From positions 248,001 to 312,000 of the forward strand of contig JARGXX010000034.1 of assembly GCA_030374765.1 (NCBI GenBank): a stretch of 64,000 nucleotides of DNA, given 5' to 3'. Of this stretch, positions 3,219-63,103 are shown in pieces (position 1 is the stretch's first letter; every line of letters starts with the position of its first letter). This DNA comes from Agarophyton chilense. Taxonomy: Eukaryota; Rhodophyta; Florideophyceae; Gracilariales; Gracilariaceae. A program made the position numbers and the translations under genes. The notes under the pieces are model-generated. The model was given only the letters and a program-made list of their open reading frames with translations, was not told the origin of the DNA and ran no database searches.

Positions 3219-4691
3219 TCACGGTGAAGAAGAGTCCGACTCAAGCAGCAAAGCCTTAGCGGCCTCCGACCGGGTTCCGGGATTGCGTGCACGTAGTGCA
3301 TCTCCCTCTGCGCGGGCAAACTGTACGAGTTCAAGGTAGGTCACCTTCGGCTCTTGTTTCCTGTAACGGGCGACAAGAGTCTTGATGGGTGGATCCAAGC
3401 CATCAATGAACATCGTACAGCGTTCCCCAGCGGGGTATACATTACCACAACGGTGGAAAGCCTTATTCAGGCGTACCGAGTAATCGGTCTCGAGCTCGCC
3501 GGAGCATTGTCGAGTGTCTCGCAAAGCGAGTATTGCCGCTTGTATCGCGGAGTTGGTTGCGTAGGAACGCAGAAGGTACTGCACGGCCTCGGGACAGCAG
3601 GTCACACTTCCTTCGGAGGCTCGCGACGAGCCCCGAACCGACAAAAACTGATCTTCAGCGACACCCGGTAGAAAGTAGGGTAGCGCCAGGTAGGCTTGCC
3701 CTTTGTTCATTCCGAGTATATCGGCTTCCGCTACAAAGCGGTGTAGGAAATCCAAGACCAGAATTGGATCATCCCCAGTAAACGACTGGTTACGAAGCGA
3801 AAGCTGCATCCGCTTGATGCAGTCTTTCACTTTACCCGTGTCACGCGGTGTCCGACCTAAAGAGGAATCTTCTAGCCGGTAATACCGGTAGGACAAGAGT
3901 GTTCTGTACAGAGGGTTGGTGGGCTTCAAGGGTTTGAGGCCCGGATGTCGCCGACCCTTGGGGCGCGACCGGATGGCCCCGTAGGTGGCAGAGGACCGCT
4001 TTGAGCGTAAAGAGCGCCCATAACGATCCTGTGGGTCATCGATCACCGACGAATCGGAACTCTCCGAGTCACTCGGTTTACCGTCCGACTCAGATGATGA
4101 GTCGGACGGGTGTCCGTGCTTACGGTTAGAATCCCGGTTCTTCCGGCTCTTCCGGTTCCGCGACTGGGTCTCTCGATGAGAGACAACCGGTCTAGCCGCG
4201 TTCGCGGGCGAGGTTAACGTCCTCACGACCGACTCAAGTCGGCTTCGGAGACGCTCGAAGCGATTCTCCATACCTTCTGCGAAGGAAGACGGAGCGCCAA
4301 AACACTCGAGTAGTGTATTGACGTCCGACCGCAATACGCGGATATCCTCTGCTACCTCACTTGGAGGGGGGTTAGCCAGGCTTCCTTGTAAAGAGGTAAA
4401 CTCCCTCGAGAGGGTATTGTGAGCAGCCCGCAGAAAGCGGAGCTGCTCTTCCAAGCGTACAATCCGCGCTTGGTCGACCAACCGCGGAGGCGGAGAAACC
4501 ACCGTTGCGACTGTCGTTAACCCGGAATCGGGCTGCGGGTCTTCAGTGCCGGTGACCAGTATCTCCCGGGAATGGGGTGTTGGAGCCAAGGCCTGTAAAA
4601 CATCAGTGCCCCTGGCATCACCGCTTTGGCGGGAACAGCTGCGTGTTGCAGGAGGCTCCATGCTAGGCGGTTTCCTTGGCATTGGCCACAC
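3219..4691 (-). CDS. Element A Gag (matrix/capsid), 490 aa, intact frame
   Basis: Structural protein of the virus-like particle. The N-terminal half is polar with Arg/Lys- and Ser/Asp-rich stretches (residues about 170-250). The C-terminal half holds a capsid-like region beginning near VKDCIKRMQLSLRNQSFTG and containing DPILVLDFLHRF, which aligns with DPIAVIEFVQKF in B and DPTAVIEFLQKF in C. No stop interrupts it, making it one of the best-preserved frames in the window. Start taken at the 4691 ATG. A helix/coiled-coil stretch rich in RLEEQLRFLR is seen near residues 75-110. Confidence 0.85.
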   Translation of the reverse strand: MWPMPRKPPSMEPPATRSCSRQSGDARGTDVLQALAPTPHSREILVTGTEDPQPDSGLTTVATVVSPPPRLVDQARIVRLEEQLRFLRAAHNTLSREFTSLQGSLANPPPSEVAEDIRVLRSDVNTLLECFGAPSSFAEGMENRFERLRSRLESVVRTLTSPANAARPVVSHRETQSRNRKSRKNRDSNRKHGHPSDSSSESDGKPSDSESSDSSVIDDPQDRYGRSLRSKRSSATYGAIRSRPKGRRHPGLKPLKPTNPLYRTLLSYRYYRLEDSSLGRTPRDTGKVKDCIKRMQLSLRNQSFTGDDPILVLDFLHRFVAEADILGMNKGQAYLALPYFLPGVAEDQFLSVRGSSRASEGSVTCCPEAVQYLLRSYATNSAIQAAILALRDTRQCSGELETDYSVRLNKAFHRCGNVYPAGERCTMFIDGLDPPIKTLVARYRKQEPKVTYLELVQFARAEGDALRARNPGTRSEAAKALLLESDSSSP

Positions 4692-5299
4692 CGTCTCGAT
4701 GGAAGAATAGAGAGCAAACCGGTGAGACCGGAGAAAACGCGTTAAACGGAAAACAACCTCAGAGAGGACACAAGCGGTCTTGATTTCTAAGTCGGGAGAC
4801 CAATTTGTAGGACAAGGCCCCCAAGGGGGAAAACCTACGAAGACGTCCGGATCTTCCTCTCACGAGATAACCGGCGCGGTAGAGCCCTCCCAGGGATCGG
4901 CGCGCAATGCCGGGTGTAAGCCGGAGCCGAACCGTCGCGACGGGCACAGTGAGGCTGAAAGAAGCCGAGGATATCCGCTGAAGCGGTGCTTGCGTATCCT
5001 CTGAGGAGGCAAAACCCACGAGAGTGGCGAGCACGACAGGTGTCCGTGCGAGCCGCAAGAGCGGGAATTGCCCAATGAAGGGGAGGAAAATGGGAACGGA
5101 GGCAAGAGGGGACTCGGGAATAGCCACTGCCGGGTGTAGCAAACCGTATACACGGGCGGAACCACGAAAGTGGGAATAGATACCCAACACACGAAGGCTG
5201 CTTGAACGTCCAAGGGGGTTGGGAAGCCGTGCACCACGGGAAATCCCTCCGTAAGGAGTTGTATATCCGCGCAGGTGGTTCGACCCCGAGCTAAGATCT

Positions 5300-5644: not shown

Positions 5645-6225
5645 ATTGAGGTTTAGAACTCGGCGCCAGTATCGGTTGGGGAGGCTGCGCGACGACGCCG
5701 GCGCACGAATTGAACAACAACCATTCAGGTAAGGACTGTCATGAAGGCGATGCAATGTAACTAGCGCGCTCGCCGACACCGTTTCGGTAGTGGCCCTGCT
5801 TACTTGCGATTCTGCTTCCGCATAGCCCCCCCTCTGTCTAACCAAGTTGGTGTCTCACCTCTTCCGGTTACTCAAACCTCAGTTCCCTCCTAGGTCCCTG
5901 CGCGCGCCGTCTGGCCTGGTCTTTCCCGCGGCTCGAGAACCCTTCAGGCATTGGTGCCCTTAATTGGCGGCGTCGCGACCGTAACCGTTCTGTCCGGCTT
6001 TCCCTGAAGGTTTCCTGGCTTCTCGACCTTTCAGGTTCTTTCTACCTTGTAAGGTTTGACTCGTGGCGCCGGTGGGGCCTGAGCCTGCGTCGATACAACC
6101 ATAGAGGTTTTGGCCTGGGTCTGTGGTGGGAGATTCCGGTTGTGAGACCTTATTGGTGTTGAGCGGCCCCGTCGGTAATTACGCGACGTTTTTCCGGTTT
6201 TGCACTCTGGTTTGCCCTCAACGCG
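5645..6225. other. Leader region between opposite ORF and lost 3' LTR of element B
   Basis: Homologous, inverted, to 27470-27780 in C. It is rich in the ACC-N5-GGT palindrome (for example near 5730, 5781, 6027 and 6100). A minus-strand frame of about 65 codons (5645-5845) is also open in C with many substitutions; whether it is coding is undecided. Confidence 0.55.
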
Positions 6226-8691
6226 ATGACAGGATCGGGTCGCCTCCACAAACGCGTTCGAACCCATTTGATACCACGTCGGTGCACCTCGCGCCGTATT
6301 GTGGATTCGGCACCGACACCTCGAAGGGGTGGATCGTCCCCACAAGCAGCACCAGCGCTCGAGAGACGTAAGATGCCGGCTACCATTGAGGTTGAAGAAG
6401 TTGGAGATTCCGAGGGGATTGATACCCCTGCAGTTATGCCTTTCAGGTCGGATCGGTCCCGTTCCACGACACCTTAAAGGTCTGGACCCGCTCGCGACTG
6501 CACGCCGGCCACTGTTGTCCCCGAAAGTTCGGTGTCGGTACTACCGGAAAGGTTGGATCCGTTGGCCGTCTCCTCAGAACGGACCGAGGAGGATCTACTT
6601 CAGAAGGATGAATACCCGCTGGTGTTCACCGCGACGGTGGAGGTCGAGTCATCACCTCGTTCGTCGGGTCGAGCTACGGCCTTCCCAACCATTTCAGGTA
6701 GCAGCCCATCTCGTCGCCGTGGACGCGGTGGTATTACCAGGAGGGTGACTCGTTCGACTTCGCGAACGCCGGCCAACATTGGGTTTCGCAGCATGCCTGT
6801 CCCTGCGACTCAGTTCTCCCCTGGGACTCCGGCCGACCCGTACCGACGCAGTGGTGGACTTCCTTCGACGACCCAAACCAATTGCGCTCACAATCTCGCG
6901 TTCGGTGCGGCGGGCTGGACGACGAGGCAGTATGGACCTTTTGGTATTACCTTCGACCAGGTGACAAACAATGACCTGTTGAAGCACGATTGGCCTGTGG
7001 CGGTGAGGAATTCGTCATTGCCGGAAGCTCTTACCAGACCACAATTGGATACCTACTTGGGTTTGTCCCGCTGGGACTGTGAGCTCCTTCGCTCCGTTTC
7101 ATTGCTTTTGAAGAAACGGGACCAAGAGTCTCAACCTCGTCAGAGTCGACTGGAATGTTACCGGAGTCCACAGCGTCGTACACCTTTGAAGTATTTCATC
7201 CCGCCGATATATCCGAGCGACTTGCCGTATGTGCGCATCAAACCGGAGCTGGATTATTACCGTCGATTGGTGGGGCAAGTGTGCCAGTATTCGTCTATTC
7301 CGGAGATTTACCTTCCGGTTTCACCTGACTTGGTTTCCCTGAATTGGCCTCTCACCACTATCAATTGGGCTGACCGTAGTAGATGGGGCGAGAATGCTGC
7401 AACGGAGAGTTGCGTTCGCACTCGCAACTCTTACACTCGTGTTATGCTTCTGTTTCATAATGTCGAGTACTTCTCACAACCTACGGATGGCAGATGCAAT
7501 TAGTAAATGCTTCGACCAGAGTGGTGGGAGTCCTATGAGGTTCCGTTATCGCTGAGCGTGCCCACTCCGCCGGTTTTGGCGTACTTCGGGAGTCAGATTT
7601 CCCGCAACCTAGAGTGGTATTATCTCATTTGGTCGATTGCCCTCTCGGAGTGTACCGTGTTGGTTGCCATCCTGGCTCTCGAGGCCGCCCGCTACGGTAT
7701 CGATTGGGATTGTCGCAATCCCGACTCTGACATATACCGAGATGATGTTCACCCTGTAGGGCGCATCTTCTTCATACCTCCGAGGGTTGCCCAGGATATT
7801 TTCCGATTTGGTTACGAGAACATCGTGGAGGGGACCGATTATACCGTGAAGGATTTGAACTCGTATCTCGAGCAGAGCAAGAATTACCATTGGGATTCCC
7901 ATCAAGGTTAGGAGGCTTTCGATCCCGCAACTTGAGAGATTGTGCCTCGCCACGCCCAATATTATTTCGGTAATCCTCCTGTTTATGGAGCTCCCGCGAA
8001 CCCCGAACCTTATCACGGTACTGTGGAGAGACCAGTTGGTCGTTATGTTGGTCCCTTCCCGTCCGAGCCGTTTCCTCAAGGTCGTAAGTCGCCTATCCCT
8101 ACGGTTGTGACTCCTACTCAACCGAGCTCCTCGCGGACTGCTGCTCCGGGTCGACCTCTGTTGGTGGGTATTGCTCGTCCTACGCCTCAACCTATGATGG
8201 ATTCTCCGGCCGTGGTCGGCTTGCTGGCTCGAATTCGCCAGTCTTTCGTCACCAACTTTCAGAGGGCTGGGCCTACCTCCGTGGTTGCTGCATTAACGCT
8301 CCTTGAAGGTTTTCTGCCGCGCCATGCGCAGTACATGAAGGCGCTAAACCAACTTGGGGAGTTCCGGAATCAGTTCCAGTTGGACATGTTTCAACTGGCC
8401 ACCCGTCAGGTTGCCAATCTGGCAAGCGTCTCTGCTGCAACGCCATCTGATCCTTTGACAGATCCTCTTCTAGGTGCAAACTTGAACCCTGCGGTTTTGC
8501 AACCTGCTCCGGCGGTTCCTTTCGTTCATCCTCTTTTGGTTTCGACTCCTCTCCCCAGTGGTGGGGCTACCACTCCTTCGCTACCTCTGAGGTCGATGGC
8601 TCCTAGCATTTCCGCTGGTTTTCCTCCGTGGGTAGTAAATAACACTGGTTCTCCAGATTTCATTGCTCCTAAACCGACAGGTCCTTCTTAA
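6226..8691 (+). pseudogene. Opposite-strand ORF of element B (unknown family, about 820 codons)
   Basis: One plus-strand frame runs from about 6226 to the stop at 8691, broken only by TAA 6475, adjacent TAG-TAA 7501-7506, TAG 7909 and TGA 7933. It is convergent with pol, ending about 160 bp from the pol stop (8852). Parts in order: Arg/Ser-rich N-terminal region (to about 6780), a Trp/Tyr-rich globular core (6900-7910) with the motifs SDLPYVRIK and VPTPPVLAYFGSQI, a Pro/Ser linker (7950-8260), and a helical, probably coiled-coil segment (LNQLGEFRNQFQLDMF) near 8340-8430, then a Pro-rich tail. Element E encodes a clearly related core (ADMPYVRCK, VPTPFVVAYHLSQL). C keeps only the coiled-coil end. 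No enzyme motif, knuckle or membrane segment is recognised; function unknown. Confidence 0.75.
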
Positions 8692-18890: not shown

Positions 18891-19754
18891 GTGCTTTTTA
18901 GACTAGCGGCGGGGTGGACGACGTCTGTGAAGCAGACGACCTAGATGAAAAGCTGCTGTATATGGTAACTCAACCATTCACTCACTTTCCTACTAAGCTG
19001 CCGTCGAGTTGATTAAATGTGGTTTCATTGTTTCTTCCGGTTTGTGGTGAGTAGGTCTTGTGTTAGTATAGTTCTATCGATAACTTGTGTTCGGCAGAAG
19101 ATGTATGTTTCCACATCACAGAAACCAGCTGCCTTCCAAACATTTGTCGATAGTCTGCAACACATGTTGACATAGATGTGGCGCCTTACATGAAAACTAG
19201 AAAACGCGGATAATCCAGCATGCTCTACCTGATGGAACAGCATTGGCCTAGCTCTCTTGGAGAAGCTTGTTGATAGAAGAGATGAATTTGCGTTCCCTCT
19301 TCTGTGTTGATTAGTGTTACGATAGAAAGGCGAAGATAGTGATTGTAGGCATTGTAATGGCCCCCTGTGATTCTGGCTACAAGGGATGTCCTGGTTTTGC
19401 AGGGTTTACGGGAGATATAAAACCTGCTACCTCGCCACCCTCTCAAACCGAGGAGAGGGAACGACTGTTTGTTTGAAGACTACCCCACTAAAAATCGATG
19501 ACTTGGATACCACAAAGGATTGGACTGAATTGGCGTCTCCAAGAACACGGAAACACCCACACCAGCGGTCGTGGCAGCGCTGGCTTGCTAAAATAACTCA
19601 ACTGCACCGCGTCGCCGTACAACAATAGTTTCTCTGTCAGACAGCTCTTTGGTTTGGCGTTGTATAGCGCAGCCTTTTTGGTTTTACTCTCTCACCAGCC
19701 ACCCTCGGGAGCAGCACACTTTTCTTGAGTGCGCTGTGTGCATCAGGTCCTGGT
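18891..19754. other. Spacer left of element C, no supported gene
   Basis: Short frames only. A TATA-like agatataaaac is seen near 19412. The segment may contain old transposon sequence, but nothing is recognisable. Confidence 0.5.
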
Positions 19755-20353
19755 TGTCGATATACTACAATGATCTTGTAGGTGATGGATGCGAGGGATC
19801 ATCGGCCATGCAGCTCCGGGCGAGCCACCATCTAGGGGTTGTCAGCTACGTGTAGTGTTGACATGTACCTCCTGGTTGAGTAATTGTTAGTAATAGTAAT
19901 TATAATCATATGTATTTTAGTACTGTAGTTGAGTGGCCACCTGGCACTGTAGCCAGTTTTGGCCAGGTCTCTGACACTAGGTCAGAGACCGTGCCTTGCT
20001 GGCACCTCCCGGGTGATCTGGAGAGTGCAGTCCACTGCCTATAAGAAACTGCACCTCCCCCATCCTAATCTGATAAAGACAGGCATAACTTGGGTCACCA
20101 CTATACCTTTTGCTTCATCGTTTCTCAAGTACCACACAGTCTTTCTCGCGCGTCGACGCCTACCATCGTTCACCTATACGATATAGGCTAGTTGCCCCGC
20201 CGTTTGCCCCTGCGGGGTTTTACGGTGCCCTGTTACCATCGAGGTTTACTACGTCTACCTTCTAAGGTTAAGCGTCAACACGTTTCCTACGGTTCAGCGT
20301 CACAACGCTCCCAAGGCAAGACAGTAGCATAGCCCAGAGGTGATTGTACGACA
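19755..20353 (+). repeat. Left (5') LTR of element C, 599 bp
   Basis: Starts TGTCGATATACTAC and ends GTACGACA. Matches 27913-28486 throughout, apart from an about 25-bp extra segment near 20270-20295. It contains a perfect 10-bp hairpin (19966-19975 with 19981-19990, loop ACTAG), a second stem GTGCC/GGCAC just after it, and a TATA-like CTATAAG at 20039-20045, suggesting the start of transcription about 30 bp downstream. Confidence 0.93.
20039..20045 (+). promoter_or_regulatory. TATA-like box in element C 5' LTR
   Basis: CTATAAG follows the hairpin cluster; the right LTR reads CATATAG at the same place. It is the best core-promoter candidate for element transcription. Confidence 0.4.
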
Positions 20354-22711: not shown

Positions 22712-23635
22712 ATGGCCGAACTCAACCTTCAATTGGAAGGCCAATCGATACCCAGAACCTTGAAGGTGGAAGAGAACACGTCACAACCAGTTCCGGTTTC
22801 TCATATAAAGTACAACAACTATAAAGTACGTGCTTCAATGTGTTTTTCCAAACGCCTTGCGGTTCCGGTCACCTGTGCGTTGGATACGGGGGCCGGCCCA
22901 AACGTCATGAACTCTCGCGTCATATCCGAGGCGGTACTTCGGAACTTGAGCCGACCTCCCGACAACAACCCGCTGGTGGATGCAAATGAGCGCCCATTAA
23001 ACCTTCGAGGTATGCTCACCACTATGGTGCAGCTCGGACACCTCAAGATTAGACTGCAATTCTTTGTTGTCGACCGTTTACCGACATACTGCCTACTAGG
23101 TACGAACTTCATTGAAAGACATGTCAAAGCAATCCTTCCTGGTTCCCATACCGTCGCCCTACGTCAGGGGGGACGAATTGCCATTTTAGGTAATACGGAA
23201 ACCAAACGGGGGTGCTTCGTCAAACCCAAGAAGACGATATCCGCCGAAACGGTCTCCAACAAAGTGCGCATTACCAAACAGGTTTTTATCCCGCCAATGC
23301 ACCAAATATTGGTACCGGTGTCGTGTGCAACCCCCGGGCTGGTCATACTACAAAACCATTCGAGGTTAGCACATCGACACATCACCTTGATGGCCAACGG
23401 GATTGTCGACAACATCCCAAATCAACCCATTAAGGTGTGTCTCTGCAACCTCAGCAGTCACGACGTGAAGTTGCCGAAAAATACCAATGTGGGCATAGCA
23501 CTACCGGCAGCACAAGGGGTCTTCACCGTAGCTCACACTGATCTCGGCGAGGTCGCCTTCAGTAAGGAAGGGGGCTGCGCAAATGCGTCCACAACCACAA
23601 AGGTATCGATAATACCAACATGGAAGCGAAGCTAA
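22712..23635 (+). CDS. Element C aspartic protease and linker, 307 aa
   Basis: Starts MAELNLQLEGQS; protease core residues about 45-140 with active site LDTGAGPN intact, then LLGTNFIERHVKAI. Residues 150-300 are the conserved post-protease linker (RITKQVFIPPMHQILVPVSC; MANGIVDNIPNQ; SSHDVKLPKNTNV). No internal stop; B has an amber at the Gln of RITKQ. It ends in a frameshift overlap with the RT frame (23620). Confidence 0.85.
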   Translation: MAELNLQLEGQSIPRTLKVEENTSQPVPVSHIKYNNYKVRASMCFSKRLAVPVTCALDTGAGPNVMNSRVISEAVLRNLSRPPDNNPLVDANERPLNLRGMLTTMVQLGHLKIRLQFFVVDRLPTYCLLGTNFIERHVKAILPGSHTVALRQGGRIAILGNTETKRGCFVKPKKTISAETVSNKVRITKQVFIPPMHQILVPVSCATPGLVILQNHSRLAHRHITLMANGIVDNIPNQPIKVCLCNLSSHDVKLPKNTNVGIALPAAQGVFTVAHTDLGEVAFSKEGGCANASTTTKVSIIPTWKRS

Positions 23636-27194: not shown

Positions 27195-27500
27195 CTAGCC
27201 CCCGAATCCGGGATTAGAAGGACCTGTCGGTTGAGGAGCATTGGGAACGGAAAGAACCGCCGGAGCGGGTTGCAAAACAGCAGGGTTAAACTTATCACTT
27301 AGAAGGGGATCCGTCAAAGGTTCAGATGGCGCCGCAGCAGAGACGCTCGCCAGATTGGCAACCTGACTGGTAACCAGTTGGTACATGTCCAAATGGAACT
27401 GATTCCGTAACTCACCAAGTTGGTTCAGCGCCTTCCTGTATTGTGCATGGCGCGGCAGCAATACCTTAAGAGTTTTCGAGCCACGGGAACGACCAGGCAA
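27195..27500 (-). pseudogene. C-terminal remnant of the opposite-strand ORF in element C
   Basis: Antisense to element C pol. It matches the end of the B ORF: LPRHAQYxKALNQLGExRNQF, VANLASVSAAxPS, DPLLxxxxNPAVLQPAPAV and a final PTGPS-type end. Its N-terminal side is cut off at about 27476, where sequence jumps to the leader homologous to B 5945 and leftward. Some 2.3 kb present in B (about 5945-8310) is missing here. The coiled-coil tail remains open and conserved. Confidence 0.8.
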
Positions 27501-27912
27501 GACGGCGCGCGCAGGGACCTAGGAGGGTACTGAAGATTGAGTACCCGGAAATGGTGAGATACCAACTTGGTTAGACAGTGGGCTATGCGGAAGCAGAATC
27601 GCAAGCAAGCAGGCCCACTACAGAAAAGGTGTCTGCGAACGCGCTATTGACACTGCATCGCCCTGATGACAGTCCGTACTTGAATGGTTGTCGCTCAATT
27701 CGTGCGCCGACGTCGTCGCGCGCCCTCCCCAACCGATACTGGCGCCGAGTTCTGAACCTCAATGGTCGCGCGCCGCGCACAGATACCACTCCGATGCCCG
27801 CGCCGCTGTCGCTCGCTACAACTCTATGGTTTGGTGGAAGGAGACACGGGGCGTGTCTCACGGGTAAGAAGGGGGTCTATCGTATAGTTGCAAAAGGTCT
27901 AACCTTTGAGGT
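27501..27912. other. 3' leader region of element C with polypurine candidate
   Basis: Homologous to B 5645-5940 inverted. A purine run (gtaagaaggggg, about 27864-27876) lies about 40 bp before the 3' LTR and may prime plus-strand synthesis. The plus-strand frame 27578-27931 is partly shared with B, its coding status unknown. Confidence 0.45.
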
Positions 27913-28486
27913 TGTCAATATACTACACTGACCCTGTAGGTGATGGATGCGAGGGATCATCGGCCATGCAGCTCCGGGCGAGCTACCATCTAGGTGTTGT
28001 CAGTCACGTATAGTGTTGACATGTACCTTCTGGTTGAGTAATTGTTAGTAATAGTAATTATAATCATATGTATTTTAGTACAGTAGTTGAGTGGCCACCT
28101 GGCACTGTAGCCAGTGTTGGCCAGGTCTCTGACACTAGGTCAGAGACCGTGCCTTGCTGGCACCTCCCGGGTGATCTAGAGAGTGTAGTCCACTGCATAT
28201 AGGGAACTGCACCTCCCCCATCCTAATCTGATAAAGACAGGCATCACTTGGGTCACCACTATAACTTTTGGTTCATCGTTTCTCAAGTACCACACAGGCT
28301 TTCCCGCGCGTCGACGCCTACCATCGTTCAGCTACACGATATAGGCTAATTTCCCCGCCGTTTGCCCCTGCGGGATTTCACGGTGCCCTTTAACCATCGA
28401 GATTTGCTACGTTTACCTTCTAAGGTTGAGCGTCACAACGCTCCCGAGACAAGACAGTAGCATACCCCAGATGTTATTGTACGACA
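27913..28486 (+). repeat. Right (3') LTR of element C, 574 bp
   Basis: TGTCAATATACTAC to GTACGACA, matching 19755-20353. The same 10-bp perfect hairpin is kept (28124-28133 with 28139-28148). Confidence 0.93.
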
Positions 28487-30531: not shown

Positions 30532-30974
30532 TGTAACGCAATGACGGGTGGGTCAGCGTACGGGTCTCGACCGGTGGTAGCGTGGTAGAGCGGGTCCTAA
30601 GGTTCGAATCCTTGAGGGCGGCACTCCCAGAGTACTTGGTGCAATGGGCTGGCGTTTACTGCGTAGTCCTGCAGGTTGGAGCTACGGAAACGATGGCTTG
30701 AAGATTAAAGGGTGGAACTAATATACCAAAGGGGGTTATTTAGTATCCTAACGGTGCCTACCGTACTCTAAGGGAGAAGCGTCACTCGAGCCAAGTAAAT
30801 AGTACTGGCGAGGCGCTGAGATCTCCCTGGCACTGTAATGCTAATCTATTACACTAATTCAAAATAATAATAAACTACATGAGTCCACCTGAGGTCGTCC
30901 AGTCCACGTGTCAGCTGCAAGATCCTTCTGGGCCCGGCGGCTTACAGAGCTCAACCGCTATCATCGCTCCTTCA
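30532..30974 (-). repeat. Left (3') LTR of element D, 443 bp
   Basis: On the plus strand it runs TGTAACGCAATG ... CGCTCCTTCA. Matches 38571-39014 end to end. Contains a plus-strand tRNA-like stretch near the outer end. Confidence 0.93.
30578..30611 (+). promoter_or_regulatory. tRNA-like sequence with perfect Pol III B box inside LTR
   Basis: TAGCGTGGTAGAGCGG resembles a tRNA D-arm/A box, and GGTTCGAATCC (30601-30611) is a perfect B box inside a T-arm-like stem (CCTAAGG ... CCTTGAGG). The spacing is too short for an anticodon arm, so it is not a full tRNA gene. The same is present in the right LTR (38617-38650); E has a decayed copy. It faces into the element on the strand of the opposite ORF. 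Confidence 0.55.
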
Positions 30975-30978
30975 CATA

Positions 30979-30992
30979 TCTCCCTCCTTAGA
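30979..30992 (-). promoter_or_regulatory. Polypurine tract of element D
   Basis: Minus-strand CTAAGGAGGGAGAT lies directly before the 3' LTR and is identical next to the LTR of E (about 59667-59680), the expected place for plus-strand priming. Confidence 0.7.
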
Positions 30993-31491
30993 AATCGGCC
31001 GTCACGGCGAAGTCCAAATTGCCTCACACATTCCTGGGGGTTTGGCTCTAACTGGACCTATCGGTGAACCTCCACTCTTGCCTTCCGGATCGGAACGTCG
31101 TGATCCTCAGCATTTTAATGGCCTGGACAAAAGCGGTGGCGTGCCCGACATGTCGGCGTCTTACGACCGATCCGGGGTTTAGTCGCTCTCGTTACCAGCG
31201 GGCGCGACGGGGCGTTCTATCTCCACCATCGTCGGGGGTGCCAGTGCGTAAGAGCTGACCCTTAGCGCCAGGTTGGAAACTAATTCACCTAGGGTACTGT
31301 ACGCGCACCAAAGAGGGGGGGTTTTTGCCGCTTTTCCTGTCCTTCGGTATTCCTCTGGCGACCTTACGCGCGTCGTCCGTCGTGAACCACGGTGCGCGCT
31401 TCGTCCATTCAAGGTCACGTCAGTCATCCTGCCCGACTCGGTTTCATCTTTCCTCCTTCCTGTCGCGGTATTCCGCCACTGGTCGCGCGCG

Positions 31492-32116
31492 ATGCCGCGA
31501 TCGCCTTATGAGCCCATCGGATATGCCATTCTCCCTCCGTACTTTCTCTCTTTCGTCTGCTTTCCTATCCATTTACCGGTGTACCAACCTGTGGGCAGTG
31601 ACACCATGGCTTCGAACAACCAAGCGCGGAGCTCCTCTGGATACCAAGTAGCTTGAGAGCGCCCTGGGGACCGCTATGACCAAACCATCGGACGAAATCA
31701 GCGGGCAGTGCATCATTCCATTCTGACGTCCCTTTGGTATTACTGCCTCGAAGGAAATTGCGACACTCCTGAGGGATTCTTATTCCTGGGCGCGTTGCTC
31801 GGTGTACTACCCCGCAGTTATCCAACAGAGTAAGGTTCTGAAGACCGCTATGGTCAATTTCCGAGAGCAAAACTCCCAAGTGATGTCCCAGAGGGTTACT
31901 GCCGACTAGGATGCCCTGTATGGTCTAAATGTGAGTGACCGGGAGGTTTCCAATGGTGACAGTAGTTCCTTAGGTGTATCTCCGCCGAAGAAGCGTGCTT
32001 GGCTCTCTGGGGCTGGTTCTGGTGGTACATTTGGCTCCTCGGGTGACCTTAGTTCCGGTTTCGCCCCTGAAGGTTTCAATGAGGACGACGGAGTTACTCC
32101 TACCCCGCCCCAGTGA
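31492..32116 (+). pseudogene. Opposite-strand ORF of element D, internally deleted
   Basis: Upstream start MPRSPYEPIGYAILPP and second start MASNNQARSSSGYQVA (ATG 31606 in ACCATGG context) match E, which has MPKSLYKPFGYAVLPS and MASNNQAGSSSGFQVA. After about 31735 the sequence jumps to the E equivalent of 62725, deleting about 2.4 kb. The remainder keeps the helical KTAMVNFREQNSQVMSQRVTAD and a C-terminal end with PPKKRAW, Gly/Ser linker and TPTPPQ (31931-32116). Contains stops and a register change. It ends about 190 bp from the pol stop, tail to tail. Confidence 0.75.
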
Positions 32117-32306: not shown

Positions 32307-32843
32307 CTAAACTTGTTCCCTGATACGGGAGCTAGGACGAACCGTCGTGCTCCGGCGAAACATCGTGTCAGAAGGCGGTTTGGGAGGCGTATACGGATTA
32401 TTCGGACCAATTGTTGCCCCCTCGTGAAGGCCGCGCTCCGAGTGGCTGATTCTGCGCCAATAGCGGGCGATAAAATTAGCCGGAATTGTTTGAGGCTCTT
32501 GCCAAGTGTCTTCCACAGGTCTGTAGCCGAACCAACGGACGTGATAGCGCATAGTTCCTTCTTCTCCCCGACCGGCGGAGATGATGCGCTGAATCCCATA
32601 TTTCGGTTTGTGTTCATTTCCCGGAAGGAGAGTGTGTTCCAGAAAAGCGAATCCATCCAAGTCGGTTGGGAGCGATGGGTCATAGTAGTTGGAATCGACC
32701 ATTGTGTCTGTTGGGCTATTCGAGTCCTCGGGAACTTCCTTAGGGGGTGTGGAGACTTGATCGTCGACCTGAAGTCGTGGTGCTTCCGTTGGGCCAGGGG
32801 GCTGGGACTCTGGTGGTCCGGAAGAACTGGGAGCTCGTGTCAC
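32307..32843 (-). CDS. Element D integrase C-terminal chromodomain, 178 aa
   Basis: N-terminal Pro/Ser/Thr linker (residues 1-80) and a well-formed chromodomain: YGIQRIISAGRGEEGTM, RYHVRWFGYRPVEDTW, IPANFIARYWRR. The cage Trp/Phe residues and the DTW motif are kept, better than in B/C. A basic tail of about 50 residues follows. Joined upstream to a GPY-like segment (STGPYKIL) on another register. Confidence 0.85.
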   Translation of the reverse strand: MTRAPSSSGPPESQPPGPTEAPRLQVDDQVSTPPKEVPEDSNSPTDTMVDSNYYDPSLPTDLDGFAFLEHTLLPGNEHKPKYGIQRIISAGRGEEGTMRYHVRWFGYRPVEDTWQEPQTIPANFIARYWRRISHSERGLHEGATIGPNNPYTPPKPPSDTMFRRSTTVRPSSRIREQV

Positions 32844-32869
32844 GTGGTCAATAGAAACGGTGTCCTGTA

Positions 32870-33753
32870 GGCCATCATGAGTAACGTGATGGTGTTTTCT
32901 TTGGCCTTAAGTATTTTGTATGGTCCCGTAGAGCGGGGTAAGAGCTTCCGCGTTGTGTCCTATAGTTTCTCACTGTCCTTTGGAGGGCGAATGGGGCGGT
33001 TGAAACATTCTACTTGGCCATTTTCCTGCGGGTGGTACGCCGTGGTGGTCACGTCTTTGATCCTAAAGTAGCACCAATGTGTGAGAAGAGTTTTGATACA
33101 AACTGGCTGTCGTTATCCGTAAGGAGGTAGAGTGGCATGTCATATGGATATACCCAGTTCCTGCCTGTTGTCTTCCCTAAGAGTAGGGCTCGAGTAAGTT
33201 CGGTAAACCTATCGGTTATGACCAACACAAGCCGTTTCCCATGGGACGACTTAGGCAGAGGCCCAAGTATATCTATTACCAAAAAGAACATCGAACCTGC
33301 GCCGGGGAAGAGCTTCAATTGGGCCTGATGGTTGGCTCGAGACCCTCGGATTTGTGCGCAAGATGTACCGTTCCCTGCGATTTGCCATAGGTCCTGCGCC
33401 ATTAGTGGCCAGTAGAAGAACTTCCTTAGGGTCTGGTACATTTGTCGGCCTACAGGGTGACCAACCAACCAAGGAAAATGGGCGAGGTAAAGAAATGGCG
33501 CCCTTATCGAAGTTGATACTACCCTTTGGAGTCCGCCATCCAGCGGTGAGAGGCGACAGAGTAGTCCCAATCTGTCATAGTCGAACAGGCATCCTGGGGT
33601 TCCTACCAATTGGGCTGTTTCCTTGCAGTACCCGCCTTCGACCTGCACCTGAAGGAGTTTCTCAATAGTTATAGGGAGGAGCTCTTTTTCCTCCGGGGCT
33701 ATCGCATTAACCTGAGGTGGTGCCGAATTGAGCGGTACTGTCTCCCAGTCCAA
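32870..33753 (-). pseudogene. Element D integrase, internally deleted
   Basis: Frame 33049-33753 holds the zinc domain (HFPWLVGHP; second Cys pair reduced to NGTSC) and core with LVIDILGPLPK and LLTDNDSQFV, so two acids are present. After a frameshift at about 33060 the Glu-containing TAYHPQENGQVECFN follows, and then the sequence drops at once to the GPY region, so about 150 codons of the post-core domain are missing. Confidence 0.85.
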
Positions 33754-38570: not shown

Positions 38571-39014
38571 TGTAGCGCAATGACGGGTGGGTCAGCGTAC
38601 GGGTCTCGACCGGTGGTAGCGTGGTAGAGCGGGTCCTAAGGTTCGAATCCTTGAGGGCGGCACTCCCAGAGTACTTGGTGCAATGGGCTGGCGTTTATTG
38701 CGTAGTCCTACAGGTTGGAGATACGGAAACGATGGCTTGAAGAAAAAAGGGTGGAACTTATATACCAAAGGGGGTTATTTAGTATCCTAACGGTTCCTAC
38801 CGTACTCTAAGGGAGAAGCGTCACTCGAGCCAGGTAAATAGTACTAGCGAGGCACTGAGATCTCCCTAACACTGTATTGTTAATCTATTACACAAATTGA
38901 AATAAATTAATAATCTACATGAGTCCACCTGAGGTCGACCGGTCCACGTGTCAGCTGCAAGATCCTTCAGGGCCTGGCGGCTTACAAGGCTCAACCGCTA
39001 TCATCGCTCCATCA
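38571..39014 (-). repeat. Right (5') LTR of element D, 444 bp
   Basis: TGTAGCGCAATG ... CGCTCCATCA on the plus strand, matching 30532-30974; tRNA-like block at 38617-38650 with the perfect B box at 38640-38650. Confidence 0.93.
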
Positions 39015-39590
39015 AAATAATGACAATATAGTGTCGGGCCCTTCGAGCTAGAACCTGCAGAGACCGTAGCATCAGATCGCCTACGAGGACATAAGGTTAG
39101 TCCCGCGTTCATCCTTTCTACAGGAATTGGCCAAACAAGAGCTAGGATACTCGTTCTTCCCAGACACTACCGACAAATAACAACCGATCCCAGTCCCTGA
39201 AGAAAGGAATGATGCCGATTGTTCTCCCCTTCCGCATGTCCTAGATGAAGAAGACACAGCCGTTCCTGTACAGATTTAGTTCAACTGGTGCCGAAATTCT
39301 TGCGGCAGCAGAATCCGCAGACAGATCCATACTACTGATGGAGTGCATTATAGTTCTTGTATCGGGTTTCCGTTCACTCGTTTTTTAGGTCGAATTACTT
39401 GGTTTGTATTCAACGATTACTACTCTTCACGAATACCGAGACTACAGATTGCGCCCCACCGTGTCGCGCCTCCGTGACTCGTATGAAGCTGGAGACATAT
39501 TTTCCATACGTTGGATAGCATGAAGTCTGAACTTAGCCGACGCGTTGACAAAGAGAAATCATCATTCAATTACTCAATTGAACCAAGCTA
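39015..39590 (+). pseudogene. Retroelement F, right part: RNase H end
   Basis: From about 39285 one register reads AEILAAAESADRSILLMEC ... ETTDC-like decay and, at the end, SLNLADALTKRN. The NLADALTK ending is typical of copia-type RNase H. Two stops interrupt. It continues element F beyond D. Confidence 0.55.
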
Positions 39591-42845: not shown

Positions 42846-44349
42846 ATGAGTTTTTTGGAGTACGTATGTCGCCTACCACCAATTGAGTCTAAGTTACGTG
42901 GTATTGACCACAGTATAACAGATGGAGAGCAACTGGGAGCACTGCTGAGAGGTCTATCGAATGGCTTACGAGTCATGAAGGAAGTCATGAAAGGCACAGG
43001 AAAACCCTGTGAAGACGCAGTTGCGATAATGATTCAGAACTAAGACGAAAGAAGGATGGATGGCGTGGAGGCTGAAAAATTATGGATCGAGATCCCTCCA
43101 AGCAGGAAGTGGGAAAAGATACTAGGAGAAGATTGGAAGTTCCTCTGCGCAAGGAGATGCTTCACATAGCAGAAAATGGTACTTTTGTGACAGAAAAAGG
43201 CACTTGAAGCGCAATTGTTAGTTTAATCCAGAGATTAAGAACTACAAAGGGTGCAATAGACAAGAAAAGACTCAAAAGAATGCAACAGAGAATGGTAAAC
43301 AGGACGATGGAAGTCCATGCTTCAATTTCATTGAAAGCACTATCGCAAACGGAAAAGTCTTGGACACACGAGTGACTGTAAATGAATATTATGAGACTGG
43401 CACTGATTATTGATTGGTTACAGTAAAAAAGCCGATGAAGACCAGGCAAAGTAAGTGGTATCTGGACTCAGGCGCATCTGTGTACATGATGAATGACTTC
43501 AAAAGCTTCTGTGGTTCAGTGAAGAGATCTGTAAAGACATTCATCTCGGAGTAAAATGAAGCGAAAATATCGTTTGAAGGAAGAGGAGACGTACGATGTA
43601 GCGTGAGGATGGGAGAAAAGGATGAGACTCTTCATCTTGAGAACGTCCAATATGTTCCAAAGCTCATGTGTAACCTTTTCTCAGTAAGCGTGATCCAGCG
43701 GAAATGGTTCTCAATTCTGTTTACTAATGATGAATTTGACAACGAGATTGCGTGGATAGGGATACAGGGCATTAACAAACCCTTGGCTATTGCTGCAGAG
43801 CGCGACGAAGGCCTTTGTTAACTACTACTAACACACCGACCAGTGGATCACGATTCGGCATTTATAGCGCAAGATGATCTAAAGGTTTGGCAAAACAGAA
43901 TAAGCCATCCCAGTTTCCAGTACCTACGAAAAACGCTCATGATGTTCAAGGGCCTTTCGTTGGAAGGAGTCCAGAAAATGGATCACTATGAGTCATCTAC
44001 CTTAAGCACAACAGTCAGAGCACCCGGACTGCCAAAAATCGAAAAGAAAAGATTGAAAATGAGCATTCTAGAACTCGTTTATACCGATTTTATGGGTCCA
44101 ATCAAGGTACAGTCTCTACCAGGAGCAAGGCACGTTGTGACTGCATACGAGGACAAGAGCTGCCTGTCTTCAGTGAGGTTCTGTAGAAAGAGGTCGTCCT
44201 GCGAGGATGCGTTGGGGCAGATGATATCATATTTAGATGCTCAGTCGTGTGTCTACAAACTCGATGGAGGGGGGGTCGGTTATGTGCCTACTTCAAAACG
44301 CAGGTTCCCCGAGTGTCCGCCGCGACAGGCGAAGAAGACTGAGCACTAG
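42846..44349 (+). pseudogene. Ty1/copia remnant: gag, protease, integrase start
   Basis: Gag fragment 42846-43043, then protease WYLDSGAS with the D-S-G triad (about 43454), a GAG-pre-integrase region (LKVWQNRISHPSFQYL), and integrase start with LELVYTDFMGPI (first Asp) and HVVTAYEDKS. It breaks off after about 44340, before the second Asp. Stops at about 43552 and 43819. Same broad family as 57200-58718. Confidence 0.75.
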
Positions 44350-45308: not shown

Positions 45309-46400
45309 ACTGGTTCAAAAACACAACCTTTATAGCATCTTTTTTATTCTAACGCGAGTTGAGTATTTTATTTTTGCCCCTTTGGCCTGTATAACACTTA
45401 TAAAACGCTTTGGCATTGATTCTATAAAAGAATTGATAGAACTACAGTTAATCTTTTCCCAACAATCTTTGATACAGTTTTTTAGATCAAAAACTGTATC
45501 AAATTGCCTTCTTTGCCCATAAACCATTCTAGCCAACATTCTCCAAATGTTTTCGATAGGGTTGAGGTCAGGAGAGCGCACAGGCCATTCCATAACCAAC
45601 ATATTTAGACTATTGAACCACTGTTTCATAGAATTAGACTTATGCACAGGTGGATTATCATGCTGAAAAATAAAATTTTCTCCGTGCATACAGTATGCAA
45701 AAGGTAAAAGATAGTATTCTAGAACCTCAGCATACTTCTCAGAGTTCATTGTAGTTTCAACAAAAGCCATATCAGTTGCTTCTTTCGTGGAAATTCCAGC
45801 CCAAACCATTACTGGTGCGCCTCCTGAATGCATGATCACAAATTCTTTCTTTTCTTTTCGTAGATCATGCCAATAAAATATATAGCAATCTTGCCCATCA
45901 AGGTTAAACTTTTTTTCGTTGGAAAAGATAACATTATTCCATTCCGTTTTCCAATAAGTCTTTTGAGCACACCATTAAACTCTACTTTTCTTGTGATTAT
46001 CTTTTAAAAAAAAAGTTTTCCTCATTTTTGTGTACTTGAACAAATTTTGACGGTTGACTTTCCACCATATTGTAGATCTTCATAGAGAGAATTTTAGATT
46101 TTTGACAATTTTTTCGCAAGATGAAGTGTTATGGCATAGTTTTCGCTTAGTTACACGCTTATCGGCCAGGGAAAGTGACGTAGGACAGCCGGTTGAACGC
46201 TTTTTCCCGTATGTAGCGAGGTTTTTGATGAAGTAGCCGATTGGTTTTGGGCTCCGCTTGAGTTTTCGGGCTATATCTGCTGGAATCATACCCTGACCTA
46301 CTAATTCAATTATTTCCAGCTGTTCAGAGCGTGTCAGAGGTGCGCTATGAGCCATAATTGAGGAAATGATTGTATAAAGGATAAACTTTTGAAACAGTGT
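45309..46400 (-). mobile_element. Tc1/mariner DNA transposon, about 1.1 kb
   Basis: Transposase frames (minus) lie between an inverted repeat of about 26 bp (45309-45334 and 46375-46400; ACTGKTTCAAAA ... CCTTTATA, 20 of 26 matching). TA dinucleotides lie just outside both ends. Size and layout fit a Tc1 element; it is inactive. Confidence 0.8.
45330..46355 (-). pseudogene. Tc1/mariner transposase, broken
   Basis: N-terminal helix-turn-helix at 46080-46355 (LTRSEQLEIIELVGQGMIP, DIARKLKRSP). Catalytic part: FSNEKKFNL (the first Asp of the usual FSDE motif is Asn, codon 45918-45920), VMVWAGIS, FQHDNPPVH (second Asp), and SPDLNPIENIW (final Glu). The C-terminal 169 codons (45330-45839) are clean; frameshifts or stops lie at 45840-46080. 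Confidence 0.85.
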
Positions 46401-52806: not shown

Positions 52807-53241
52807 TCAGTACTTCTTCGGGTGTTTCGGGTATGTCGGGTACTTCGGGTATTTCGGGTGTGTCGGGTATTTCGGGTATTTCGGGTATTTCGGGTACCTC
52901 GTTTTCGGGATCTTGAAAATCGGGGGCTTCTTGTAGAACGGAATCTTCTTGTAGCATTTCTTACAGATGCAGTAGTCTTTTCCATAGCACCAGTCATATG
53001 TTTTCCAAATGTAATTGTAGTAATGGCATTTGTGTCCATAATAATAATTTTTAGGGCAGAAAGAACAGTAGTAACTCTTGGTGCAGATACTGCGATCAAC
53101 CGGAGAAAGATCAGCCTCGGCTACTTCGGAGGCTGGGATCTCAACAGCCTTAACTGCATCCCGAACTGCATCTGGAGCGGTTGCAGCGGAAAAGGCGACA
53201 GTTGCAAGGCAAAAACAGAGCAAAAGAGAGAGCGAGTTCAT
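52807..53241 (-). CDS. Secreted Cys/Tyr/Lys-rich protein with KYP repeats, 144 aa
   Basis: Signal peptide MNSLSLLLCFCLATVAFSA, then a probable acidic propeptide (about residues 20-52). A Cys/Tyr-rich domain (residues 53-101) has eight Cys and many Tyr/Lys (for example CSFCPKNYYYGHKCHYYN), consistent with four disulfides. A basic tail of about nine YPK/YPT-type tripeptides (TRYPKYPKYPKYPTHPK ... KHPKKY) closes it, encoded by a 9-bp tandem repeat (52810-52905). Start is the ATG at 53239-53241; the GTG three bases upstream is not used. A TATA box lies about 90 bp upstream. Composition resembles structural or adhesive extracellular-matrix proteins; that role is inferred only. Confidence 0.8.
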   Translation of the reverse strand: MNSLSLLLCFCLATVAFSAATAPDAVRDAVKAVEIPASEVAEADLSPVDRSICTKSYYCSFCPKNYYYGHKCHYYNYIWKTYDWCYGKDYCICKKCYKKIPFYKKPPIFKIPKTRYPKYPKYPKYPTHPKYPKYPTYPKHPKKY

Positions 53242-58900: not shown

Positions 58901-59282
58901 ATGCTAAATTACATTCCTGTTCCTTTGCAACGTTTGGGCGCGTTTTTCAAACATCAGCAGGCCAAAGTGCGGTGGAATGTTCCCCTACGCGGTGGTGATA
59001 GCGTTATCCGCTACAAGGTAGAAACCCCGATATATTTATAGTATGGTTTAGATTCTAGCAAAAATCAATATTTCGAAACCGTCAACCAAAAAGAAAGGCC
59101 CCATGTCTTTGGGGTTTGAGCTTCTTCTAATCAATGGAAAACAAATTTTGGACTTCAAAGAAGCAGTATCGAACAGGGCCCACAAATCAACGAGAAATAC
59201 AAATTATCCGAAAAATGAGTATGGCAAGTGTAAAAGAAATGTGACTACAGTATATACAGCGTCTCACTCATCCACAGAAAGA
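58901..59282. other. Short spacer, no gene
   Basis: The 61-codon frame at 59103 runs into the LTR remnant and has no recognised motif. Confidence 0.5.
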
Positions 59283-59662
59283 GTCTAAGGTTCGAATACT
59301 TGACGGTGGCACTCCCAGAGTACTTGGTGCAATTGGCTGGCGTTTACTGCGTATTCCTACAGGTTGGAGCTACTGAAAAGATGGATTGAAGACCAATTGG
59401 TGGAACTAATATACCAAAGAGGGATATTTAGTATCCTAACGGTACTTACCTTACTCTAAGGGAGAAGCGTCACTCGAGCCAAGTAAATAGTACTGGCGAG
59501 GCGCTGGGATCTCCCTTCACTGTAATTATAATCTATTGCACTCATTAAAACAAATTAATAATCTACATGAGTTCACCTGAGGTCGATCGGTCCACGCGTC
59601 GCCTGTAAGATACATCAGGTCCCGGCGACTCACAGGGCTCAACCATTATCATCGCTCCTTCA
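59283..59662 (-). repeat. Truncated 3' LTR of element E, about 380 bp
   Basis: Matches D's LTR from the T-arm-like sequence (ctaaggttcgaat, B box now decayed) to the CGCTCCTTCA end; the outer about 60 bp are missing. It is followed directly by the same purine tract as in D (about 59667-59680, minus strand). Confidence 0.85.
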
Positions 59663-60214
59663 CATATCTCCCTCCTTAGGATTCGGCCGTCACGGCGAAG
59701 TCCAGATGGCCTCATGATGGACCCAGGGGACGCGAGCCTTTTGTTGCTTCTAGTACCATTGGGAGCGACGGGACGTCACGTCGACATCGCCTGTGAAGAA
59801 GACTGGAAATGTGAGCTGACCATTGGCGCCAGAGGGAAATTAATTTTCCTAAGGACTGAAACTCCCACGCGCCGTGTGCGCTAGCCATAGGTGCATCGCC
59901 GGCGCATTCCTCGCGTCGTGTGGCCGAGACGGTCCATTTGCTTCTTCTCCTCTGACGGTCATTGGGGCCTTCCTTAGTCTCCGTTCTCTCTTTGGCAACC
60001 CTCCGCGCTTCGTCCACCGTGGTTCGCGTCTGTCAGTCTGTTTGGGTCAAATCCATCCCTTTGTCTTCCTATCGTGGTACTTTTCCATTCGTCGCGCGCG
60101 ATGCCGAAATCGCTTTATAAGCCCTTCGGATATGCCGTTCTCCCTTCGGACTATGTCACCTCCTGCAGATTCCCCCTCCATTCCCCGGCGGACCAACCTG
60201 TGGTCGGCGGTACC

Positions 60215-63103
60215 ATGGCTTCGAACAACCAAGCGGGTAGCTCTTCGGGATTCCAAGTGGCCTACGAACGTCCCGGGGACCGCTATGACCATACCATCCG
60301 ACGGAATCCGTGAGCAGTGCGTCATGCCATTTTGACGTTCTCTATGGAGTAATACCAGCGGTTTTTTAATATGTATCTCGATACCTGAAGGTTTGCCAAG
60401 ATACCCGGTTTCCGGATGGGAAGCAAGAACGCGCGCAGCGTCTCGTGGCATGACCGATGGTTGCATTGTCTTGTGGATCCGCCACCGGCGACGCGATGTC
60501 GCACCCTCATCCAAGCGGACATGCCATACGTCCGCTGCAAGTAGGAAGCCGAATACCAGTTCAGGGTGAACAAACTCCTTTCGGACCTATACACGGATTT
60601 CATCTCGCCACATGTGCGATTCCTTCCCGAGGGTGACAATATCTTGGCTCTTATTTGCTTCCAGACGCCGTATGACCTCCTGTTCTGGATGTACAATAGG
60701 GTCTATCGGAACGAAATGCACGAGCCCGATGGTCGTTTGCGTCAATTCCTGGGGTTCTTCTTATATTGGCACCAGGTGAAGTTTCACGACATGGGCCCAG
60801 ACAAACGTCTCCCGCTATATCTTTCGTTTCCTCACGAGGATGAGAACCAATGGGCCATGTATTGGCGTGTATAGCCACTGCTTTTGGTTCCCACACCGTT
60901 TGTGGTGGCGTACCACTTGTCCCAACTCATAGGCGATGACAGTGACCGAAGGTTGTGGCTGTCCTGGCAGGTACTCTTCGTCGCGTTCCGCGTGATGTCC
61001 CTTATGGCCTTCCTGGATACCTCGAAGTACGGAATCTGTGGTAATGTCCGTTAGCGGGATTGGAGGGTGTGGTACGATGAGAACATACCAGGTCCTACAG
61101 CTCGCCTAATCCCGCTCCCAGACATCATGATCCGTTTCGTAAGGAATTGTAGAGCAACGCCCAGTTAGGGGATACTTGAAGATGCAACTCATAGAATGAG
61201 GATTGAACCCTCCGAGGGTTATGACTATGATCCCCTCTAAGGTGTGCTGAGGTGGCACTGTTTTCTGGTTAGAGTTCGCCTATGAAGTGAAAATTCGGAT
61301 GGCCCATGGTTGGATTGGCCCCGTGATACACGTGGCTTAATTTTGGCACCGATTTTCGGATATTTGTTAGAACGTTGGACTTCTGGGCCCTGACAGTGGG
61401 ATCTCCACGTGTATGGCCCTGAGCAGGTGTGCACTACTGTAGAGTTCAGTTAGTGGGCCCTACTTAGGGAGACGAGATCTGACAGTCCGAAGCTCAGAGT
61501 AAAGGGTAACCAAGGTTGGTCTTCGATACCTTTAGAGGTTCTTCGTCGCCATCGTTTCGGCCTTACAACCCGGAACGGGCTCTGGTTAGCAACGCCTGCG
61601 TAGGGACACGACTCCACTTGGAGAGTGCCCACGTTTGGGTTCCGTGCAACCACCCCCTTGGGACCGCTCAGACGACCTGCGTGCACGATACCCCGTGGGG
61701 GTTCTGCTTACTGGTTGCGTGCTTTTTGTGTTTCCTTTCGAGGACAGGTTTTCGCCCCTGTATTGGGTTTCTTTTGTTTTTTCGCCCCTTTTCTGGTTCT
61801 CGGGTCCGGTGCCTGTTAGTGCCCGACCCTCGCCCCGTTTTTCCTCTTCGCCGGATTTTCCCCCATTCTTTGGGATACCCATACCCATTCTCGATCCAAC
61901 GGTTTCTACCCCTCACGTCCGTCGGTACTGCCGGAATCCCCCGTGGGAGTTACACCCCACACTACGGGTGGAACGGAGGGCTCTGTCTCTGAGTCTGCCT
62001 CCCCCAGGGAGCAAGGCTTCGAACACCTTGAGAGCACTTCCCGTCGCCGGGTTTTGCTCCACAGGAATTTGGGAGTCCGTAAAATCGTCCGTGGGAACCT
62101 GTTTGACGTCGAGGAGACTGAGGCCCTTTTGGATCATGTCCTACAGGTGGAGTGGGGCAAGAGTCCCGGGTTCCTTTGGTATGACCACGATAGCGACTCG
62201 TTCAGGTCGATTCCACTACATCCGCAGGGTCGGGACGACGCTCGTGTTTATCTCTCCAAGCCTTTGAGGACTCAACCAAGAGACATCCCGAGTCGTCATG
62301 TGCCCGACTATTATGCAAAGGCCGTTGGTTTCGATCCCCTGTGCTTCGAGCATAATGTGGAAGCCACGCCGTTGGTTCCTGCTGGTATGTCCGACGTAGA
62401 ATCCTTCGGTGAAGATCCCTTCGTCCTACCAGTAGAGGGCTGCAATCCTCCGGTCGAGTCAGCCGTGGTGTTACCGACCACTTCTTTTCCTCCAGCTCCT
62501 CCGGGCGCTGCTCCTCAGGGTGAACTCTCATATGAGCCGCCCGTCGCCCAAGTGGACATCCCTCCTGGCGAGGTTACTGTAGAGGCCGGAAGTACCGTAG
62601 GTGATGCGCTGGTTCCAACGTCCGCTGGAGGCGCCGACATCGCTCCATCTTCTCCGTTGCCACCCTTTCCCGTTTCGGTCACGGCTGCGGCTTCGGATCT
62701 CCGTTATGTCTGCCATTCCGTTGGTATTACGGCCTCGATGGACATTTCTACAGTCCTGAAGGAAGCCTGATCCTGGGCGCGTCGCTCGGCACGCTACGTC
62801 GCGGTTGTCCAACGGGGTCAGGACCAGAAGACCGCCATGGTCAATATCCTGCAGCAGAATGCGCAGGTGATGCCCCAGAGGGTTACTGCAGACTTGAATG
62901 CCCGGAATGGTCTAAATTTGAGCGACTGGGAGGCCGCTGATGTTGAGAATAGTTCCTCAGATTAATCTACGCCGAATAAGCGTGCTCGGCTCGCTGGGAC
63001 CGGTCTTGAAGGTCCAGTGTGCTCCTTGGGTTACCCTAGTCTCGGTTTTGCTCCTACAGGTTCCAATGAAGACTACGTAGTTGCTCCTGCGCCGCCCCAG
63101 TGA
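60215..63103 (+). pseudogene. Opposite-strand ORF of element E (unknown family, about 962 codons)
   Basis: The ATG at 60215 has an ideal context (ACCATGG) shared with D; an upstream in-frame ATG at 60101 is also shared. From there to TGA 63101-63103 the start and end are in one register. There are stops (for example 60311, 60347, 60374, 60539, 60872, 62768 and 62963) and compensating shifts at 61200-61900. Segments: MASNNQ N-terminus; core 60440-61150 related to B (DMPYVRCK, FLYWHQVKFHDM, VPTPFVVAYHLSQL, MSLMAFLDTSKYG); a clean 275-codon frame 61943-62770 with RGNLFDVEETEALLDHV and FLWYDHDSDSFRSIPL, then a Pro-rich linker; helical KTAMVNILQQNAQVM; basic PNKRARLAG; end APAPPQ. No known domain. 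Confidence 0.75.

Follow-up and report, generated by a model that had tools for sequence, protein, structure and literature searches.

A conserved antisense accessory gene in chromodomain-bearing Ty3/Gypsy retrotransposons of the red alga Agarophyton chilense

The window analysed here is a stretch of 64,000 nucleotides (bases 248001-312000 of contig C34) of Agarophyton chilense DNA; the genome searched is the 79.8-Mb assembly in 135 contigs. The window holds several element copies, designated A to E, and those which host the antisense frame described below are, judged by their domains, chromodomain-bearing Ty3/Gypsy retrotransposons. Copy D is a whole element with pol on the minus strand. Its 5' LTR (38571-39066, minus strand) and 3' LTR (30532-31026, minus strand) are 93.7% identical over 444 bp, and the end of its pol (32307-32906, minus strand) is chromodomain-like (Pfam Chromo, E 2.3e-5, 24.6 bits for a cut-off of 25.1). 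The 3' LTR of E (59220-59714, minus strand) matches the LTR of D, and that of C (27910-28486, plus strand) has its partner at 19752-20353. B-type copies show matches to RT, RNase H and integrase together with a weak chromodomain match (13.8 bits, E 0.058), and the C element contains a protease-like match, after which comes a weak dUTPase-like match at 22712-23632 (Pfam E 0.0088, PDB E 0.38). The label "chromovirus" derives here solely from the putative chromodomain at the integrase C-terminus, for which the D match lies just under the Pfam cut-off, and according to PMC12477816 chromodomain Gypsy elements also exist outside the chromovirus clade.

In B and E, a long frame runs opposite to pol between its chromodomain end and the 3' LTR and converges with pol across a gap of about 160-240 bp, as measured from frame ends and alignments. 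The original prediction had placed an antisense frame exactly there, and for these two copies it holds. Position and orientation agree with the antisense accessory frame (aORF-3R) of Ty3/Gypsy elements, which occupies the interval from pol to the 3' LTR and runs against gag-pol. The B frame (6226-8691, plus strand; 820-codon type) is decayed, its 820 aligned codons containing five in-frame stops, yet full-length, and its start aligns with the ATG of the intact copy L012. The E frame (60215-63103, plus strand) does begin at ACCATGG, as had been proposed, with a further in-frame ATG upstream at 60101. Its supposed length of 962 codons was nevertheless mistaken, as it is made up of about 655 true codons, themselves interrupted by in-frame stops, and a solo LTR of 916 bp (61148-62063, no strand assigned). 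The latter has TG...CA ends (TGTAGAGC...GCTCCACA), is flanked on both sides by the 5-bp duplication GGAAT, is absent from copies L031 and L032 and lies outside the accessory gene proper. Since solo LTR and duplication together measure 921 bp, the E frame stays open across the insert by accident. The same solo LTR is also found in L042, a 99%-identical copy on another contig.

Related frames are numerous in this genome. The E piece gives at least 126 scored matches (1526 candidates), the C-terminal piece of B at least 150 (393 candidates) and its N-terminal piece at least 119 (118 of 349 candidates scored). Conservation in many copies, as in aORF-3R, is thus observed, though types without the gene exist. 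Twenty B copies of 10 kb and 12 E copies of 4.5-5 kb were retrieved, picked partly for long frames. One of these copies, L018, retains both LTRs, 98.3% identical and with 9.3 kb between their outer ends, and has the accessory frame inside, adjoining the 3' LTR. The B alignment consists of 19 of the 20 retrieved copies plus the B copy of the window; L026 was excluded because about 700 bp split its frame, and the frameshifted L019, L023, L029 and L030 were retained. On the E side, the rearranged L036 was kept as a row in the codon-position, omega and basic-motif analyses, and so was the near-identical pair winE/L042, a variant limited to these two counting as neither shared nor private. In L036 (871-3744), the RT/RNase H frame and the E-type frame share one strand, the former continuing into the latter. 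Four B-type copies (C13:7056, C109:948363, C110:15130 and C110:50522) score identically, and two of the four lie close to the end of a contig; candidate causes are a large duplication of recent date, a subtelomeric repeat or an assembly duplicate.

Stop-to-stop frames reach 839, 842, 861, 876 and 856 aa in the B copies L011-L015, and 748 and 698 aa in the E copies L031 and L032, respectively. Each row of the B alignment covers 806-820 of the 820 codons and carries 0-5 stops, three of the 20 rows being stop-free. In principle, such an open frame could be a by-product from which no protein is made, due either to base composition or to a frame on the opposite strand. In 200 dinucleotide shuffles per sequence, the longest open stretch was 335 codons for L012 and 343 for L031, against 842 and 748 in the copies themselves, and the minus-strand frames are rich in stops (37, 33 and 21 in L012; 30, 20 and 20 in L031). 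A chance open frame is ruled out by these shuffles together with the selection test that follows.

If the protein is needed only during replication of the element, variants shared between copies are expected to be mostly synonymous and private ones neutral. Shared variants were defined as those present in three or more copies and private variants as those present in one, with omega calculated relative to change-type expectations. Private variants fall evenly on codon positions 1, 2 and 3 (261/253/257 in B, 204/200/194 in E), whereas shared variants accumulate at the third (28/24/66 in B, 58/42/138 in E). Accordingly, shared variants, most of which predate insertion, give the accessory frame an omega of 0.34 in B and 0.31 in E, and private variants one of 1.06 in B and 1.09 in E. 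Fisher tests give p values of 5e-10 (B) and 3e-19 (E), which serve as guides only, related copies being non-independent. A 13-row subset of B agrees: of its shared variants, 45 are synonymous and 29 non-synonymous, and of its private ones 185 and 467, respectively. The remaining two plus-strand frames have shared-variant omegas of 1.59-2.0. The three minus-strand frames of B, on the stop-rich strand, give 0.49, 1.69 and 1.36; the first of these values is what a by-product would predict, and the other four frames of B, all at 1.36 or more, argue against it. So does the conservation of the protein between families and in a transcriptome relative (P0009, see below), and we consider the by-product explanation extremely improbable.

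Shared variants that are mostly synonymous and private ones that are neutral indicate that the protein was selected during replication of the elements. At the level of sequence, the data demonstrate purifying selection on the predicted protein while the elements replicated and neutral decay after insertion. That the antisense frame codes for a protein is, in our judgement, practically certain. The original prediction had asserted selection on a protein and had named dN/dS across copies and random breakage of the frame as checks; the omega values bear the assertion out, and the breakage seen in single copies is that expected after insertion. The part of pol reaching from RNase H to the chromodomain, taken from the B copies used for the accessory frame, has an omega of 1.04 for private and 0.62 for shared variants. 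Constraint on the accessory frame thus seems no weaker than on pol (0.34 vs 0.62), although the figure for pol may be too high owing to alignment noise.

The encoded protein has a predicted length of about 640-820 aa. Comparison of the sequences reveals a core of about 310 aa common to diverged families and flanked by variable ends, namely a Pro-rich C-terminus and, in the B type, additionally a Ser/Pro/Gly-rich N-terminus. B and E proteins find each other by blastp (E 3e-18) and by phmmer (50.5 bits, where 1000 shuffles reach 4.9 at most), and their cores align by hhalign with a probability of 97.9% (E 6e-13, 310 columns, 24% identity). The short protein motifs originally noticed in both copies are part of this homologous core. 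Between families, pol is better conserved than the accessory protein: B and D are 51% identical in RNase H, 42.5% in the integrase and 38% in the chromodomain.

Database homologues of the E piece all came from Agarophyton chilense (7 of 7), and later searches returned the same species plus a single transcriptome protein. The latter, P0009 (263 aa, EukProt), shares 62% identity with the B core and 52-67% with the B-type matches of this genome. More distant from P0009, at 41% and 38% identity, are two diverged B-core relatives at C1:469893-470624 (minus strand) and C6:137322-138044 (plus strand), which perhaps represent further families carrying the gene. Searches of Pfam and PDB yielded no credible relative of the B and E proteins, the best PDB hits having E values of 0.5 and 1.2. 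Transposase_28 (TRP28, PF04195) was considered as an identity and ruled out, its profile being unmatched in the 13 + 21 members scanned at E values up to 10, in a scan which filtered out most matches above E of about 0.1. The earlier statement that no known family is recognisable therefore stands, TRP28 included. A structure model of the 820-aa B protein built from the 13-row alignment has a mean pLDDT of 24.9 and no usable fold.

The frames at the corresponding places of C and D, which had been counted together with B and E as four copies bearing the gene, are in fact remnants of internal deletions, and that of D is not one frame. In C, a C-terminal part of the B-type frame is left (27195-27518, minus strand; junction 27454-27467) and the stretch matching B 5958-8306 is missing. 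In D, what is left of the E-type frame is an N-terminal and a C-terminal part lying in different frames (31492-32116, plus strand; junction 31722-31729), and the stretch matching E 60338-62709 is missing. The junctions show overlaps of 14 bp in C and 8 bp in D, of the sort template switching would leave. A 201-bp probe for the D junction detects at least 40 loci including D, the junction being spanned in 40 out of 40 (40 of 397 candidates scored); the C-junction probe gives 43 match rows, of which at least eight, C included, extend across it (40 of 380 candidates scored). As the junction-spanning matches other than the window copies are 82-88% identical to the probes and lie on many contigs, they look like amplified deletion types rather than recent duplications. 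The matches show that in both the E and the B family, copies lacking the core by one common deletion per family have, as far as their sequences tell, multiplied. The gene is thus dispensable in cis. For D-type pol (D plus six retrieved pieces, 7 rows), variants present in two or more rows give a shared omega of 0.44, or 0.45 (p 0.04) when the most diverged row is left out, which weakly indicates that D-type elements went on replicating and that selection on their pol persisted.

The existence of gene-less types is compatible both with a borrowed accessory protein and with one that is simply dispensable. In the latter case, the protein would provide mild or conditional help, and the derivatives would not need it and would borrow nothing in trans. 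The at least 40 and at least eight loci occupied by gene-less types, and the omega still lowered in D-type pol, are in keeping with such a role. A constraint on the frame at least equal to that on pol in the B copies is harder to reconcile with it, and we regard it as unlikely. The explanation we prefer is that of a selected antisense accessory gene whose product is a trans-acting nuclear regulator, borrowed by gene-less derivatives. By analogy with maize Grande gene23, the antisense mRNA would start from a promoter of its own within the 0.5-0.7 kb that separate the 3' LTR from the start codon. The product would act in trans and would probably be a nuclear regulator, as the conserved basic motif (PKKRARL-like) at the C-terminus of the E type suggests; K-R is present in 13 of 13 E rows and PKKR in 11 of 13. 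It may target the transcription, silencing or integration of the element that encodes it and of related ones, and gene-less derivatives would use the protein of full-length relatives. Taken as a whole, this explanation appears moderately probable. A stronger version, in which a new family of antisense-expressed trans-acting proteins serves anti-silencing or nuclear steering and the gene-less types are parasites that borrow the protein, is conceivable but doubtful.

Two observations count against a nuclear regulator: the basic motif is absent from both B proteins examined, and the core of both types contains a single hydrophobic stretch (19-residue means of 2.09, 2.47, 1.82 and 1.36 in four proteins), which would fit a membrane protein too. 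The frame could then encode a structural or envelope-like membrane component of the particle, and the large size and Pro-rich character of the protein, as well as the conservation of the hydrophobic stretch, point in this direction. However, an acidic residue lies within that stretch, the E type has its basic C-terminal motif, and the frame is antisense, unlike known env-like frames (PMC7264820), which run in sense orientation downstream of pol. Furthermore, no kinship was seen with the neighbouring putative gag of element A (3222-4859), a weak test, that frame itself being without a credible Pfam match. A particle component thus seems rather improbable to us, and the nuclear regulator is retained as the preferred reading.

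Plant Ty3/Gypsy elements, namely maize Grande (gene23), rice RIRE2 and Silene Retand, are known to carry antisense accessory frames in the interval from pol to the 3' LTR, and such genes are so far without known function (PMC7264820). Gene23 has its own promoter and a nuclear product (PMC7264820). The frames described here resemble these cases in place, antisense orientation, occurrence in many copies and unknown function. They differ in that Grande, RIRE2 and Retand are of Tat/Retand type and, as described in PMC6317226 and PMC11963269, lack a chromodomain, and in that their hosts are plants and not a red alga. The antisense TRP28 proteins, reported by PMC11963269 from 97% of Retand clusters and, as described there, confined to flowering plants, likewise lie between pol and the 3' LTR, but no TRP28 domain was found in the present frames. 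By description only, the fungal Boty-like brtn is similar as an additional antisense gene in a non-plant Gypsy element (PMC7264820; PMC8365987). Our search, which reached few subscription papers, found no report of antisense frames in red-algal Gypsy elements in the open-access literature. We regard the protein family and its setting as new and an antisense accessory gene in Gypsy elements as known in kind.

These results place an antisense gene in a red alga and in chromodomain elements, with selection on its protein measured. Full-length elements beside amplified types without the gene form a natural comparison in two families, which makes trans action versus dispensability directly testable. 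Elsewhere in the window there are fragments of other mobile elements, namely a DDE_3 transposase (45333-45839, E 9e-12) and a weak gag_pre-integrs match (43843-44346, E 4e-4). At 52817-52896, within a frame of 164 aa, the 9-bp unit TTCGGGTAT is repeated in tandem in 8.9 copies.
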